Assembly: GCF_004365875.1 (NCBI RefSeq)
Contig: NZ_SODF01000003.1
Location: 145,805 to 209,804 of the forward strand
From: Kribbella kalugense
GTDB lineage: Bacteria; Actinomycetota; Actinomycetes; Propionibacteriales; Kribbellaceae
DNA: 64,000 nt
Reading direction: 5' to 3'
Position 1 is the first letter of the stretch; each line of letters begins with the position of its first letter. Below, one piece after another: positions 1,036 through 38,690 of this stretch. The notes beneath the pieces were generated by a model. The model searched no databases. It was not told where the DNA came from and worked only from the letters and a program-made list of their open reading frames with translations. Both the position numbers and the translations under genes were made by a program.

Positions 1036-1974
1036 TCATCCGGCGATCAGCCGGATTCCGACAGCGCCTGGGTAGAAGGCGAAGGCGATGGTCACCGGGA
1101 GGACCAGAAAGATCACCGGCACCATCATGGCTACTTCGCGGCGCGCACCGGACTCGATCAGCTCGCGGCGCCCCGCTTCCCGGATGTCGCCGGCCTGCGC
1201 CCGCAGTACGTCGGCCAGCGGGGTGCCGCGCTCCAGCGCCACCGCCAACCCGTCCGCGAACCGCGACAGCGCCAGCAACCCGGTGCGGTCCGCGAGCGCG
1301 TCGAGCGCGCGGACCAGTGTCTCCCCCGCCCTGGTCTCTGCCAGGACCCGTTTCAGTTCGTCGGCCAGGTCGCCCCGGCACGATCGCGTCACCCGGTCGA
1401 GGGCGGCCGCCGGACCCTCTCCGGCCGCGACCGACAGCGCCAGCAACTCGGCCACGGTCGGCAGCTCGGCGAGCAGTCGCCGCTCACGCCGCCGTACCTG
1501 TGTGGTCAGGAAGGTGTCGCGACCGAGGACTCCGACGACCCCGAGGACCAGGCAGAAGACCAACATCGCCACCGGGTTGCCGACGCCGAACGCGACGGCG
1601 ACGATCGAGATCACCAGACCACCGCCGAAGGCCAGCGTCCCCCAAAGCAGCTGCTCGATCCGGAACTCCTCCACGGTCCGCTCGATCCCGGCCCGCTGCA
1701 TCCGTCGCCGGATCGTGCCCGCCCCGCCGAGGATCCGCTCCAGCCGTCGCGCCGCCGAACGCAGCGACGGGCCGAACAGCCGCAGGATCGCGTAGAACGG
1801 CGACCGCGAGTCCACTACCCCGACGAAGACGTCCGGCGCCCCGAGATCCTGCAGGTACGGCGAGATCCGCTCGTCCACCGAGGGTTTGCGCAGGAACGGC
1901 AGCCGCAGTACGGCGAGCAGCAGGCCGGCGCCGAGCAGCGCGCCGAGGGAACCACCGATCAGCATCGGGCTCAT
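1036..1974 (-). CDS. tadC: TadC-like type II secretion F-domain membrane protein
   Basis: 312 residues. The protein has an N-terminal membrane helix (about 5-25), a cytoplasmic region, two helices near the middle and two near the C-terminus, with the T2SSF (GspF) domain covering the second half (LLALSVAAGEGPAAALDRV and the matching FADGLAVALERGTPLADVL segment). In Tad systems TadB and TadC form the membrane platform that the CpaF/TadA ATPase works on. The ATG overlaps the tadB stop (ATGA), which fixes the start. Length is normal for the family. Confidence 0.88.
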   Translation of the reverse strand: MSPMLIGGSLGALLGAGLLLAVLRLPFLRKPSVDERISPYLQDLGAPDVFVGVVDSRSPFYAILRLFGPSLRSAARRLERILGGAGTIRRRMQRAGIERTVEEFRIEQLLWGTLAFGGGLVISIVAVAFGVGNPVAMLVFCLVLGVVGVLGRDTFLTTQVRRRERRLLAELPTVAELLALSVAAGEGPAAALDRVTRSCRGDLADELKRVLAETRAGETLVRALDALADRTGLLALSRFADGLAVALERGTPLADVLRAQAGDIREAGRRELIESGARREVAMMVPVIFLVLPVTIAFAFYPGAVGIRLIAG

Positions 1975-11243: not shown

Positions 11244-12389
11244 CTACCAGCTCAGGAGTAGTTGCTCGAGGCCACTGCGGGTCATCGGCCGGTCCAGAAC
11301 GCCGACTGCTTCCCGCTCGGCGAAGGCTGCGTGGTCGGAGTCCTGCGGATCGATCGCCTCGCAGATCGCGTTGTACGCCCAGTTGAGCCAGGCGGTGATC
11401 GCCACACTGAACGACGACAGCTCCAGGGCCGGCCAATCGCCGTACCCCTCACGGAAGGCCGCCAGCGCCTTCGGGTTGACCGTCGGCCGCATCACCCACT
11501 GCGTCAGCGCCGACCCCAGTTCGAGCGCGGGCGTCATCGAGCCGGTGAAGTCCCACTCCATCACGATCAGCTCGTCGTCACGCCCCAGCCGGACATGCGT
11601 CGGGATCAGATTGCTGTTGCAGAGGATCAGCTCGCCCGGGTCGACCTCGGTCTCGATCGTCTGCAGATCGAGCCACAGCGGCAGAACCGCCTCCAGCCGA
11701 TCGGCCCACGGCTTGCCCGCGACCCGGGACCGTTCGAGCAGCTTGTCCCACTCGGACTCGGGCCGCCGCCAGACGATGTACGGATTCATCGGCGCCTCAC
11801 TGGGGATCGCCAGCGCATGCAGCTTCCCGTACGCCGCACCCGCCCGCCGGGCCACCGCCGCGGAGACAGGCAGCGCCGGCGACGGACCCACCTCGAGCCA
11901 TTCGTGGACGCGCCAGTTCTCACCCTGCACGCCCTCGACCAGCTGTCCCCGCGGACTCCGTACGGCGACCGGCGCGGCCACCCCGGTCGCCACAGCAGCG
12001 TCCCGCAGTCGCGCACCGAGCTCGGCCTGCTCGTTCGTGATCCAGTCGTACACGGTGATCGCCAGCCAGCGACCGCGGTCGGTGGTGACATCCCAGCAGC
12101 GCCCCATGGCCGTGAACGAAACAGGTTTGGGCGGGGCGATCACCGTGCCCAGACCGAAGGCTTCCGCCAGTGCTTGGGCCAGCCCGTCGGGTGCGGCGGG
12201 CGTCGTGGAGACCCGGCGTTCGACTTCGGCCTTCAGCGCGGGCCAGTCGCGGATGCCGTACTGCTCGGCCAGCGCCCGCTGGGCGTCCGCCAGCGAGGTG
12301 TCCGGCTTGGATTCGCGCAGTACCGCCAGGAGATCCTTGGCTTCCTTGCGCAGGTAGTCGATGCTCGGGCGATCCGGCAGCAGTTTCAC
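11244..12389 (-). CDS. phosphotransferase-fold protein with degenerate catalytic loop
   Basis: 381 residues. Residues 1-60 are a short helical domain (IDYLRKEAKDLLAVLRESKP and YGIRDWPALKAEVERR), seen in front of other actinobacterial domains. Residues 70-381 resemble the aminoglycoside phosphotransferase/choline kinase fold. The usual H-G-D-L-x-x-x-N catalytic loop reads NSNLIPTH (258-265), so the catalytic Asp is Asn and the metal-binding Asn is His. The usual D-W is EWDF (278-281). If the alignment is right, this is a pseudokinase or a diverged enzyme. The GTG start has AGGAC upstream. It is convergent with the oxidoreductase at 10239, with only three bases between. Confidence 0.7.
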   Translation of the reverse strand: MKLLPDRPSIDYLRKEAKDLLAVLRESKPDTSLADAQRALAEQYGIRDWPALKAEVERRVSTTPAAPDGLAQALAEAFGLGTVIAPPKPVSFTAMGRCWDVTTDRGRWLAITVYDWITNEQAELGARLRDAAVATGVAAPVAVRSPRGQLVEGVQGENWRVHEWLEVGPSPALPVSAAVARRAGAAYGKLHALAIPSEAPMNPYIVWRRPESEWDKLLERSRVAGKPWADRLEAVLPLWLDLQTIETEVDPGELILCNSNLIPTHVRLGRDDELIVMEWDFTGSMTPALELGSALTQWVMRPTVNPKALAAFREGYGDWPALELSSFSVAITAWLNWAYNAICEAIDPQDSDHAAFAEREAVGVLDRPMTRSGLEQLLLSW

Positions 12390-12621
12390 AACGCGTCCTC
12401 TCGTACCCGGACTCGCACGGGTCTCAAGAGAGCGTCACCAACCGCACTCGGCTCAAGGATTTGAGGTGGCTTCCAGCCTTCCGGCGAGTCTCGACGCGCC
12501 CTCACACGCACTCGTGACGGTACCCAACCCCGCGGTGGGGGTCAACGGGCAGCACCGGCCCCTCGGCCCCGGAGGATTCGGGACCGAGGAGTTTCGCGGG
12601 GCCGACTAGCCGAACTCTCTG
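12390..12621. other. intergenic stretch without a recognised gene
   Basis: This region lies upstream of the phosphotransferase-fold gene and downstream of the 37-residue gene. It contains GC-rich sequence with no convincing start codon and ribosome binding site pair on either strand. It may hold the promoter of the gene ending at 11244. No repeat or RNA gene was recognised. Confidence 0.5.
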
Positions 12622-12735
12622 CTACTTCCGCGCTTGTTTCGTGGGCGGAATGATCGCGCTGTCGCTCGGATTGGCTTTCGGCTGTTTGGGTTGCTTGGGT
12701 TTGCGGACTTCACGTCCACCTTTGTTCTTCGACAT
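12622..12735 (-). CDS. 37-residue basic protein
   Basis: The sequence starts MSKNKGGREVRKPKQPKQPK and ends KQARK, so it is strongly basic, Lys/Pro-rich and probably disordered. CGGAG lies six bases before ATG 12735, a good ribosome binding site. AAA and AAG codons are frequent, unlike the neighbours. Short proteins beginning M-x-K-N-K-G and rich in Lys and Pro are annotated as hypothetical in many bacteria. The composition suggests nucleic-acid or ribosome contact, but no function is known. It is transcribed alone; 109 bases separate it from iolA upstream. Confidence 0.7.
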   Translation of the reverse strand: MSKNKGGREVRKPKQPKQPKANPSDSAIIPPTKQARK

Positions 12736-12844
12736 GACAAACTCCGGAGCTTCGAGGATCGCGGACAGGCCAGCGGCCTTCGTACGCCGCGGTACTCCTC
12801 ATGCCCCGGGGGTTGCCTTCGACGCTACACCCAAGCGCGCGCTT

Positions 12845-36772: not shown

Positions 36773-37750
36773 ATGACTGACAAGAAGCTGATCGCCGTCG
36801 TCGGTGCGACCGGATCGCAGGGCGGCGGGCTGGTCCGCGCGATCCTCGCGGACAAGTCCGGCGAGTACGCCGTCCGGGCGCTGACCCGGAACCCGGACTC
36901 CGGCTCGTCGAAGGAACTCGCCGCGGCCGGCGCCGAGGTGGTCGCGGCCGACCTCGACGACGAGGCGAGCGTGCGGGCTGCGTTCGACGGCGCGTACGGC
37001 GCTTTCGTGGTGACGAACTACTGGGCCGCGCTGACACCCGACGAAGAGGCCGCCCGGACCCGCGCCGAGATGGAGCTCGCCCAGGCCGAGAACGCCGCCC
37101 GCGCCGCTCGTGACGCCGGCGTCAAGCACCTGGTCTGGTCGACACTCGAGGACACCCGGCCGTTCTTCGACGGACGCGACGACGTACCGGATCTGGACGA
37201 CGGCCGCTACAAGGTCCCGCATTTCGACGCCAAGGGCGAGGCGGACGAGCTGTTCACGAAGTACGGCGTACCCACGACGTTCCTGCGGACCACGTTCTAC
37301 TTCGATGCCTTCCTCAACGGCATGCCGCCGACCCGGAACGCCGACGGCAAGCTGACGATCACCCTGCCGATGGGCGACCGTCGACTGTCCGGCGTCGCCT
37401 CGGAGGACATCGGCCGGAGCGCCTTCGCGATCCTCAAGCGGCCCGACCTAATCGGCGAAACCGTCAGCATCGCCGGCGACCACCTCACTGGCAAGGAGTA
37501 CGCCGCCGCCCTGAGCGACACTCTCGGCGAAGAGGTCGTCTACCACGCCCCCACCTGGGAAGAGTTCCGCACCTACCCCTTCCCCATGGCCATCGAAATG
37601 TCCAACATGTTCCAGTTCTACGCCGAGAACCACGACCGGTTTACCGGGGAGCGTGACATCGAGAAGGTTCGTGAGCTGAACCCTGAGCTCGAGTCGTTTG
37701 CGACGTGGGTCGAGAAGCACCGTGAAGAGCTCAAGGCTGCACAGAGCTGA
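36773..37750 (+). CDS. NmrA-like NAD(P)-binding protein
   Basis: 325 residues. The N-terminal Rossmann motif is VVGATGSQGGGLVRAIL, typical of NmrA-type atypical short-chain dehydrogenases, which sense NAD(P) or act as reductases. There is no clear Y-x3-K catalytic pair. The region FLRTTFYFDAFLNGMPPTRN and the C-terminal PTWEEFRTYPFPMAIEMSNM fit the family. Expression is likely controlled by the divergent MarR regulator through two operators. The 3' end overlaps the convergent phosphotransferase gene by 20 bases. Confidence 0.87.
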   Translation: MTDKKLIAVVGATGSQGGGLVRAILADKSGEYAVRALTRNPDSGSSKELAAAGAEVVAADLDDEASVRAAFDGAYGAFVVTNYWAALTPDEEAARTRAEMELAQAENAARAARDAGVKHLVWSTLEDTRPFFDGRDDVPDLDDGRYKVPHFDAKGEADELFTKYGVPTTFLRTTFYFDAFLNGMPPTRNADGKLTITLPMGDRRLSGVASEDIGRSAFAILKRPDLIGETVSIAGDHLTGKEYAAALSDTLGEEVVYHAPTWEEFRTYPFPMAIEMSNMFQFYAENHDRFTGERDIEKVRELNPELESFATWVEKHREELKAAQS

Positions 37751-38690
37751 GGAGGGTTTGGGCTTGGGCTTCGGTGGTTTGGCGGAGGGCTTTTAGGTTG
37801 GGGGGTGCGGTGTCTGGGGCGCGGCAGGTGCGGAAGGTCAGGTCTATTAGGCGGCGGGTGAAGAGTAGGGCGGGGAGGCGGGCGCGTTCCTCGTCGGTCA
37901 AGGTGACTACTCGGGTGTAGCCCTTCAGGAACGGGGTCGCGGCCCAGCCTGACTTCAGAACGAGCGTCATCGACGGCAGTCGTGGGCCGCGGCCGGCGGA
38001 GGTCCAGTCGACCAGGACCGGGCCGTCCGCGGTGAAGATGACGTTCTTCGGGACGGGATCGGGGTGGACGAAGCCCTCGGGCAGCCCGTCTCCACCATCG
38101 GCGGACGACAGGGCAGTCCGGAGGGCATCGACCGCTGGGCTCGCCTCGACAGACTCGAGCCAGTCGGCGGCAGCCCGGAGTTCGTCGGCCAGCGTTCCCT
38201 CGGCGAAGTGGTGCAGGGCGCCTGCGGGCCGGTCGCCGTCGGCCGGCCCCGGCAGGGCGCCTGCGGGGCGGTCAGTGACGGCCGGCCCGGGGAGGCCGTG
38301 TAGTCGGCCGATCATCGCGCCGAGGCGGACGATCGGGTACGGCGGGCGCTTCGCCTTCGGGGTCTGCTTGATGAATTCGGTGACCAGCACGGCCTGGCCG
38401 GCGTGCCTGGTCAGCGGCCCGTCGCCGTACGGACGCTCCGCCGGGAAGCCGAGCTCGGCGAGATACCGCAGTACGGCGAGATCACCCTCGGCGGCGGCGT
38501 ACGAACGGTCTGCGGAGAACAGCCGCGCGACCAGCGGCGTTCCCTTGTCGCTTCGGTCGACCCTGAACACACCGACGTCGAGCTGCGTCACCTTCGCGAT
38601 GGCGATCCCGTAGGTCGTCTCGAGGTGTGCGGGCAGGGTGTCGATGCTCTCGCGCTGGTACATCCGGCGAAGGACCGCGTCGAACCCCAC
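37731..38690 (-). CDS. aminoglycoside phosphotransferase-fold kinase
   Basis: 319 residues. The catalytic loop HPDPVPKN (209-216) has the Asp and Asn of the kinase fold, and VLVDWTSAG (D228) is the metal-binding motif. It is a small-molecule kinase of the APH family with an unknown substrate; homology to resistance enzymes does not show resistance. The linker at residues 140-159 has an internal repeat (DRPAGAL twice). It is transcribed alone, and its last 20 bases overlap the convergent NmrA-like gene. Confidence 0.82.
   Translation of the reverse strand: MGFDAVLRRMYQRESIDTLPAHLETTYGIAIAKVTQLDVGVFRVDRSDKGTPLVARLFSADRSYAAAEGDLAVLRYLAELGFPAERPYGDGPLTRHAGQAVLVTEFIKQTPKAKRPPYPIVRLGAMIGRLHGLPGPAVTDRPAGALPGPADGDRPAGALHHFAEGTLADELRAAADWLESVEASPAVDALRTALSSADGGDGLPEGFVHPDPVPKNVIFTADGPVLVDWTSAGRGPRLPSMTLVLKSGWAATPFLKGYTRVVTLTDEERARLPALLFTRRLIDLTFRTCRAPDTAPPNLKALRQTTEAQAQTLLSSVQP

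Follow-up and report, generated by a model that had tools for sequence, protein, structure and literature searches.

Pseudokinases of the APH fold are already known from spore coats, and actinobacteria likewise have known pseudokinases, of the protein-kinase type; Kribbella makes no endospores. Among the bacterial spore kinases (YtaA/CotI), several members have lost the catalytic Asp together with other motifs, as set out in the available part of the source (PMC2860764). These kinases share the fold of the family described here but are spore-coat proteins of endospore formers, and the same part of that source makes no mention of an N-terminal domain like the one present in this family (PMC2860764). 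ActPs1-3 and other bacterial Ser/Thr pseudokinases are, according to the accessible part of the report on them, actinobacterial and diverged in all catalytic motifs; ActPs1-3 are, however, of the protein-kinase type (bSTK), whereas the family described here is assigned to the APH type (PMC12599244). With the APH/choline-aminoglycoside-kinase group (PF01636), the family is alike in its profile fold and in the columns of G96, H191, W279, G283 and E290. Unlike that group, it never possesses the Lys, the catalytic Asp and the metal Asp together, and it adds both an N-terminal domain (N-domain) and a leader RNA. The N-domain in turn resembles the N-terminal part of Glyoxalase_8 (PF20066), the rest of that profile being unmatched.

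As regards the leader, a structured autogenous leader is said to control the gene of its own binder in the case of ribosomal protein S15; such leaders offer a works-like comparison only, the N-domain being a putative binder. The cis-regulatory families of Rfam 15, which reportedly took up the motifs of a large survey of bacterial RNAs from 2017, are the same kind of element, and no family matches. Across the window, i.e. the whole stretch of 64,000 nucleotides of Kribbella kalugense DNA that was analysed, Rfam 15 produced no match at the gathering score and four matches at E ≤ 10, none of which overlaps the leader, while at E ≤ 1 none was obtained at the leaders of seven loci. Three surveys of RNA motifs in bacteria (PMC2864571, PMC6429828 and PMC11109978) contain neither 'ankyrin' nor 'Kribbella' in the available part of their main text, and no report of the pseudokinase family or of the leader was found in the open-access literature, as covered by titles and the beginnings of abstracts.

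Domain organisation of the protein and definition of the family

A first-pass annotation had described the gene as encoding a kinase-fold protein with frame and fold intact. The frame is indeed open throughout (Table 1). For the fold, the claim is borne out by the PF01636 (APH) profile, which matches residues 122–323 with 30.5 bits (cut-off 23.2), but not by the predicted structure, as the full-length model, generated with nine sequences, is poor (mean pLDDT of 56.4). Foldseek analysis of this model placed macrolide, spore-coat (YtaA), ethanolamine/choline and aminoglycoside kinases at the top, with a best E value of 0.005 and no match reaching 0.001. A sequence search of the PDB identified one weak APH match (7s3l_A), with an E value of 0.023 that became 0.0009 when the family profile was used. 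As judged from these profile and sequence matches, the fold assignment of the kinase half is APH type. Among the family members tested, PF01636 scored above its cut-off in three of six, below it in one and was absent from two, and it was also above the cut-off in the one relative of a further scan; these patchy scores are taken as a mark of the divergence of the family. The window's own genome (G000) contains 67 APH-family matches.

Eight relatives of 63–89% identity belong to named Kribbella records. Searches of 391 genomes of the order, 394 genomes of the class and two more families (22 and 24 genomes) yielded 14 members from outside the genus, seven of them displaying 37–61% identity. Together with 26 full-length copies from the same genus, these make up the family set of 40 members. 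Two rows were dropped (G008b, the frame of which ends at the match, and the duplicate G060), while G754a, in which the loop is apparently frame-shifted, is included in the 40 and excluded from pairwise identities and from the count of conserved acids. This apparent frame-shift in the catalytic-loop region (locus L104) may be a sequencing error or real. The 34 kinase-only relatives used for comparison are best matches, a selection rather than all that exist.

The N-terminal part of the protein, annotated earlier as a helical domain of 60 residues, is confidently modelled by AlphaFold as a three-helix bundle (mean pLDDT of 92.8), in agreement with that description. PF20066 matches residues 7–61 with 24.9 bits (cut-off 23.7), covering positions 5–59 of the 143 in the profile; the relatives tested reach position 90 at most, and three of six score above the cut-off. 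No PF20066 match at E ≤ 0.01 was obtained in two ankyrin N-domain proteins that were scanned. Foldseek analysis of the N-domain retrieved no solved structure at E ≤ 0.001, and a PDB sequence search with it returned nothing convincing (best E value of 0.15). With the window protein as the sole query, 11 longer proteins from the same genus were found to begin with the N-domain, at 43–51% identity; two of these proteins were scanned with Pfam and proved to be ankyrin-repeat proteins, and it also heads a TPR-like protein in the window's own genome (TPR matches below cut-off). Its net charge ranges from 0 to +3 among eight domains, and this near neutrality makes it unlike a typical RNA binder. PADLOC produced no match for the pseudokinase or for the TPR-like protein. 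Two ankyrin N-domain proteins (loci L139 and L141) gave a weak to moderate PADLOC match to the candidate-defence model PDC-M72A, perhaps by way of the ankyrin repeats only.

Table 1. Positions, in window coordinates, of the pseudokinase gene, its parts and its leader RNA.
Feature	Position	Strand	Basis or remark
Pseudokinase gene	11244..12389	-	Open frame, 381 aa, GTG start
N-domain, residues 1–61, three-helix bundle (helices 10–27, 33–43, 49–60)	12207..12389	-	Partial PF20066
Degenerate APH/choline-kinase-type half, residues 66–381	11247..12194	-	Pfam, alignment, Foldseek list
I111 in beta3 Lys column	12057..12059	-	K in 34/34 kinases, 0/40 family
Catalytic-loop remnant N258-S-N-L-I-P-T-H265	11595..11618	-	Alignment
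E278 in DFG-type Asp column	11556..11558	-	D in 34/34 kinases, 1/40 family
Leader RNA, P1 to start codon	12387..12504	-	Conserved block, covariation, model search
Leader P1, 5' strand (pairs with 12462–12466)	12500..12504	-	Covariation
Leader P1, 3' strand	12462..12466	-	
Pseudoknot 5' strand GACUCGC (pairs with 12410–12416)	12484..12490	-	Covariation
Leader P2 hairpin GGCU-GGA-AGCC	12468..12478	-	Covariation
P4 hairpin ACCCG...CGGGU; loop contains pseudoknot 3' strand GCGAGUC (12410–12416)	12405..12422	-	
GAGAGG ribosome-binding site region and GTG start	12387..12402	-	UCUCUUG just 5' of P4 complementary to CGAGAGG

Structure and covariation of the leader RNA

A leader block ahead of the start codon is common to 39 of the 40 family members, with 38 of 122 window positions invariant; in the remaining member, G058b, the N-domain is truncated and the locus gives no significant leader, and this member is counted among the 40 but lies outside the 39 leaders. 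The structure defined on this block comprises P1, P2, P4 and a pseudoknot of 7 bp. The invariant core nucleotides sit between the helices. In a MAFFT alignment of the 39 leaders, 98.0% of cells are paired and eight of the 21 pairs are changed on both sides, a result that was reached by none of 500 shuffles, while slid partners gave 26–46%. The leaders of ankyrin genes bring in further helix variants: their pseudoknot consists of GGUCCGC with GCGGACC or GCGGACA (as against GACUCGC:GCGAGUC in the pseudokinase leaders), and their P2 of GGGC/GCCC, GGGU/ACCC or GGAC/GUCC.

When leaders were read by an element parser (58 of 60 read, the other two added through a hand-typed pattern and one leader put into register again), 36 distinct sets resulted, with 97.5% of cells paired, 16 of 21 pairs double-changed and none of 500 shuffles reaching this on any of four measures; this count leans towards the proposed structure because the helices were placed by a script that seeks pairing. 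When 35 leaders, drawn from both kinds, were simply aligned with MAFFT and the count was restricted to P1, P2 and the pseudoknot, 96.3% of cells were paired (slid controls, 32–45%), with 118 double-changed cells against 40.2 after shuffling and a covariation score of 0.537 against 0.215. Two weaker measures were unremarkable in the same alignment, namely changed pairs (reached by 15 of 500 shuffles) and further pair types (382 of 500).

Genomes were searched with two leader models, an earlier, narrower one (R1) and a wider one comprising the pseudoknot and P2 (R2). P1 and P4 are not part of the R2 structure; of 11 new leaders found with R2, 10 could be parsed with P1 at 5/5 and P4 at 5/5, the script having tried several offsets. 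One leader (L183) carries G after P2 where the others carry A. RNAalifold, in which pseudoknots are disallowed, recovers P1 and P4 and pairs the core differently, while single-sequence folding of the window leader, again with pseudoknots outside the model, was unexceptional (z of −0.64, 51 of 200 shuffles being as good). On the strength of the alignments, the region upstream of the pseudokinase gene is a leader RNA that contains a pseudoknot and covaries strongly.

In many leaders, that of the window included (Table 1), the sequence preceding P4 shows complementarity of up to 11 bp with the ribosome-binding site, the longest pairing being that of ACCUCCUUUCU with AGAGAGGAGGU in Kribbella ankyrin genes. 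The best stem within one and the same leader has a mean length of 7.2 bp, compared with 5.8 bp in cross-matched leaders; in several leaders this pairing amounts to just 4–5 bp, and some best stems miss the site. This complementarity suggests translational control.

Association of the leader with the N-domain

A search of 240 genomes of the class with R2 returned 25 matches in 19 genomes of nine genera, each of which ends directly at the start of an N-domain gene. Thirteen of these leaders were part of the model and 12 were new to it. The genes behind them encode ankyrin proteins in 20 cases (above Pfam cut-offs), pseudokinases in four and a TPR-like protein in one; the variety of C-terminal halves is thus limited. 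R1, applied to 345 genomes of the class, gave six matches at E ≤ 0.01, four of them before pseudokinase genes and two without an N-domain in the locus, namely L149 (37.0 bits) and L147 (29.6 bits). The former, at 1501–1619 (+) of its locus and with a damaged P4, is perhaps a relic, and the latter, which lies inside an open frame, looks like a chance match. Strict filters applied in the searches with these models.

In the reverse direction, all 11 N-domain genes detected by protein profile in 148 genomes of the class carry the leader. Ten of these are non-pseudokinase genes, and R1 scored at E ≤ 0.01 upstream of seven (L134, L135 and L137–L141); for L136, L142 and L143 it was the element parser alone that detected a leader, and these three were later included in R2. 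Similarly, R1 found seven of 11 further ankyrin leaders from the same genus (E values of 0.0004–0.13) and missed four (L156–L159), which the parser recognised. The leader model was applied to nine of the 34 kinase-only loci and yielded no match at E ≤ 0.01 in any of them (best 0.3). The leader is the sole significant match of the leader model in the window, and the window's genome contains two more, at G000:C2:996248-996371 (+) and G000:C2:2758482-2758605 (+) (L180 and L184), preceding an ankyrin-repeat gene and a TPR-like gene, each with an N-domain. From these searches it appears that the leader follows the N-domain and not the kinase fold. In the broken pseudokinase copy of G002, the first half of the leader is kept (L036, 1445–1569, plus strand), while the ribosome-site hairpin and the first codons are gone.

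Such an association may also arise if the leader is a riboswitch for a metabolite or an ion and the N-domain proteins constitute its regulon, in which case the N-domain never touches the RNA. The compact pseudoknot beside the ribosome site, the invariant nucleotides of the core and the nearly neutral N-domain would all suit a riboswitch, and we regard this explanation as a serious contender, albeit one that falls somewhat short of being probable: every R2 match precedes one and the same domain family, while many of the riboswitches already known are located ahead of several gene families that are unrelated to each other. The leader and the N-domain may, alternatively, travel together as adjacent DNA that is copied as a block, the RNA being functionally independent of the domain. 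That the leader adjoins the N-domain in every R2 case, and that most of the leader genes are of the ankyrin kind, would be expected from block copying. P1, P2 and the pseudoknot have, however, changed on both sides after the subfamilies diverged, and such double changes show selection on the leader RNA itself, though not on the tie between RNA and domain; block copying is held to be unlikely.

Loss of the catalytic residues

The catalytic loop had been read as NSNLIPTH, with the catalytic base and a metal ligand replaced, and the same letters are found here in the context L-C-N258-S-N260-L-I-P-T-H265. Alignment with the 34 related kinases places N260 in the column of the catalytic Asp and H265 in that of the loop Asn, confirming that both are replaced, and reveals no other Asp in the catalytic position of the window protein. 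The kinase-only relatives have H-x-D in 34/34 and the loop Asn in 34/34. Also in accordance with the first-pass annotation, the other APH gene of the window (37731–38690, minus strand) keeps both residues, reading HPDPVPKN...VDW. Two losses come in addition to those originally recorded, namely that of the DFG-type Asp (E278) and that of the beta3 Lys (I111).

Beta3 Lys, catalytic Asp and metal Asp read KDD in all 34 kinase-only relatives and in none of the 40 family members. Taken singly, the Lys is present in 0/40, the catalytic Asp in 2/40 and the metal Asp in 1/40, and no member has two of them. The loss is conserved among orthologues, as HGD occurs in none of the 26 full-length copies of the genus. 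All of these have L-C-N in place of H-x-D and E-W-D-F at the DFG-type position; their catalytic Asp column is mostly N, with Y, A or V in single genomes. Other positions of the fold are retained, G96, H191 and W279 being present in 40/40 family members, while an acid, D or E, occupies position 280 (two residues past the metal Asp column) in 40/40 family members and in 34/34 kinases. Past residue 65, the acids conserved by identity in at least 92% of 39 members are E290 (38/39) and E152 (36/39); E290 and D/E280 correspond to acids in most or all kinases as well, whereas E152 is not shared with them.

These retained positions bear on the possibility that the protein is active with an altered chemistry, as happened in SelO or SidJ. 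The fold positions are retained, and since E278 is invariant among the full-length copies of the genus and D/E280 throughout the family, a different type of metal site is possible. On the other hand, the Lys, Asp and metal-Asp columns differ by lineage (VNE, SSG, GDH, RNG and others), and no new common catalytic acid is apparent, except perhaps E152. This pattern of conserved acids, together with the lineage-specific catalytic columns, argues against a common new phosphotransfer chemistry, while another activity is possible; altered chemistry is, on the whole, quite unlikely.

Phylogeny, selection and genomic context

In a tree of the kinase halves of 74 proteins, the 40 family members form one side of a branch with support of 98/93, and the same split is obtained without the catalytic columns (support of 74). 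By profile, the N-domain is present at 40/40 family loci and at 0/34 kinase-only loci. This distribution and the one-sided branch imply that the fusion of the N-domain and the loss of catalysis coincide, most simply as one event. Among 162 same-genus pairs with dS of 0.05–1, which are not independent of one another, dN/dS ranges from 0.10 to 0.38 (median of 0.25). The comparisons of coding sequence thus indicate that purifying selection acts on the family, which is a conserved pseudokinase. Conservation is higher in the N-domain than in the kinase half, with mean pairwise identities of 68% and 43%, respectively (11 of the 14 outside members), and this order holds in 55/55 outside pairs and in 682 of 703 pairs (38 members).

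Progressive decay and loss of a resistance or sugar kinase, for which it may be adduced that the gene is absent from nine and partial or broken in three (G002, G020 and G007) of 38 same-genus genomes, is very improbable, as the gene is full-length in the other 26 (own genome included), dN/dS is low, the same columns are lost in members of 37–44% identity from other families, and the leader is conserved. The suggestion made from the sequence at the outset, that of a pseudokinase sensor, therefore divides: the pseudokinase part stands on the residue counts (0/40 versus 34/34), the tree and dN/dS, while the sensor part is conjectural.

Within 1.5 kb, 14 of the 26 full-length copies (65–100% identical) adjoin mmsA and a short Lys-rich ORF, as do the broken copies of G002 and G020, whereas the other 12 (60–65%) are without these neighbours; given this split neighbourhood, no operon partner is inferred. 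The short Lys-rich ORF (MSKNKGGREVRKPKQPKQ...) is located at approximately 12625–12740 (-) of the window, between mmsA and the leader, and occupies the same place in the mmsA-linked loci, at 78–97% identity. Two loci (L040, 6129–7884, and L043, 6135–7835) possess two genes between the pseudokinase and a Gfo/Idh-like gene that are absent at this place in the window, one of them LysR-like by eye.

Discussion

The reading that we favour, and consider reasonably probable, is that of a dead APH-fold protein joined to a three-helix N-domain, with a pseudoknotted leader that gates its translation and that can mask the ribosome-binding site with its 3' part. Translation would switch as the leader opens or closes, and either the protein with the N-domain or a ligand on which it reports would act on the leader, amounting to autogenous control. 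The dead kinase pocket would bind a ligand or a partner without transfer of phosphate, and the kinase half may serve as a binding surface, in common with its ankyrin and TPR-like counterparts. Because the leader accompanies one domain with three kinds of C-terminal half (mostly ankyrin), the N-domain is the simplest candidate for the binder. Roughly the same likelihood as for the N-domain acting as the binder attaches to a metabolite switch over a small regulon of N-domain genes, and such a regulon would, in the window's genome, consist of three genes.

Autogenous control through the N-domain may tentatively be extended to a mobile module of RNA plus domain, in which a class of leaders is read by the N-domain encoded next to it, so that pseudokinase, ankyrin and TPR-like proteins would set their own translation and the dead pocket would signal to the leader through the N-domain; this broader scheme is possible, though doubtful. 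The pairing of leader and N-domain points to a control circuit that has not previously been described.

The family represents an APH-type pseudokinase family in actinobacteria for which active relatives are available for comparison. Its leader is a structured, strongly covarying element that is absent from Rfam 15 and that is tied to a domain without assigned function, and through this tie the function of the N-domain and of its ankyrin proteins becomes directly testable.
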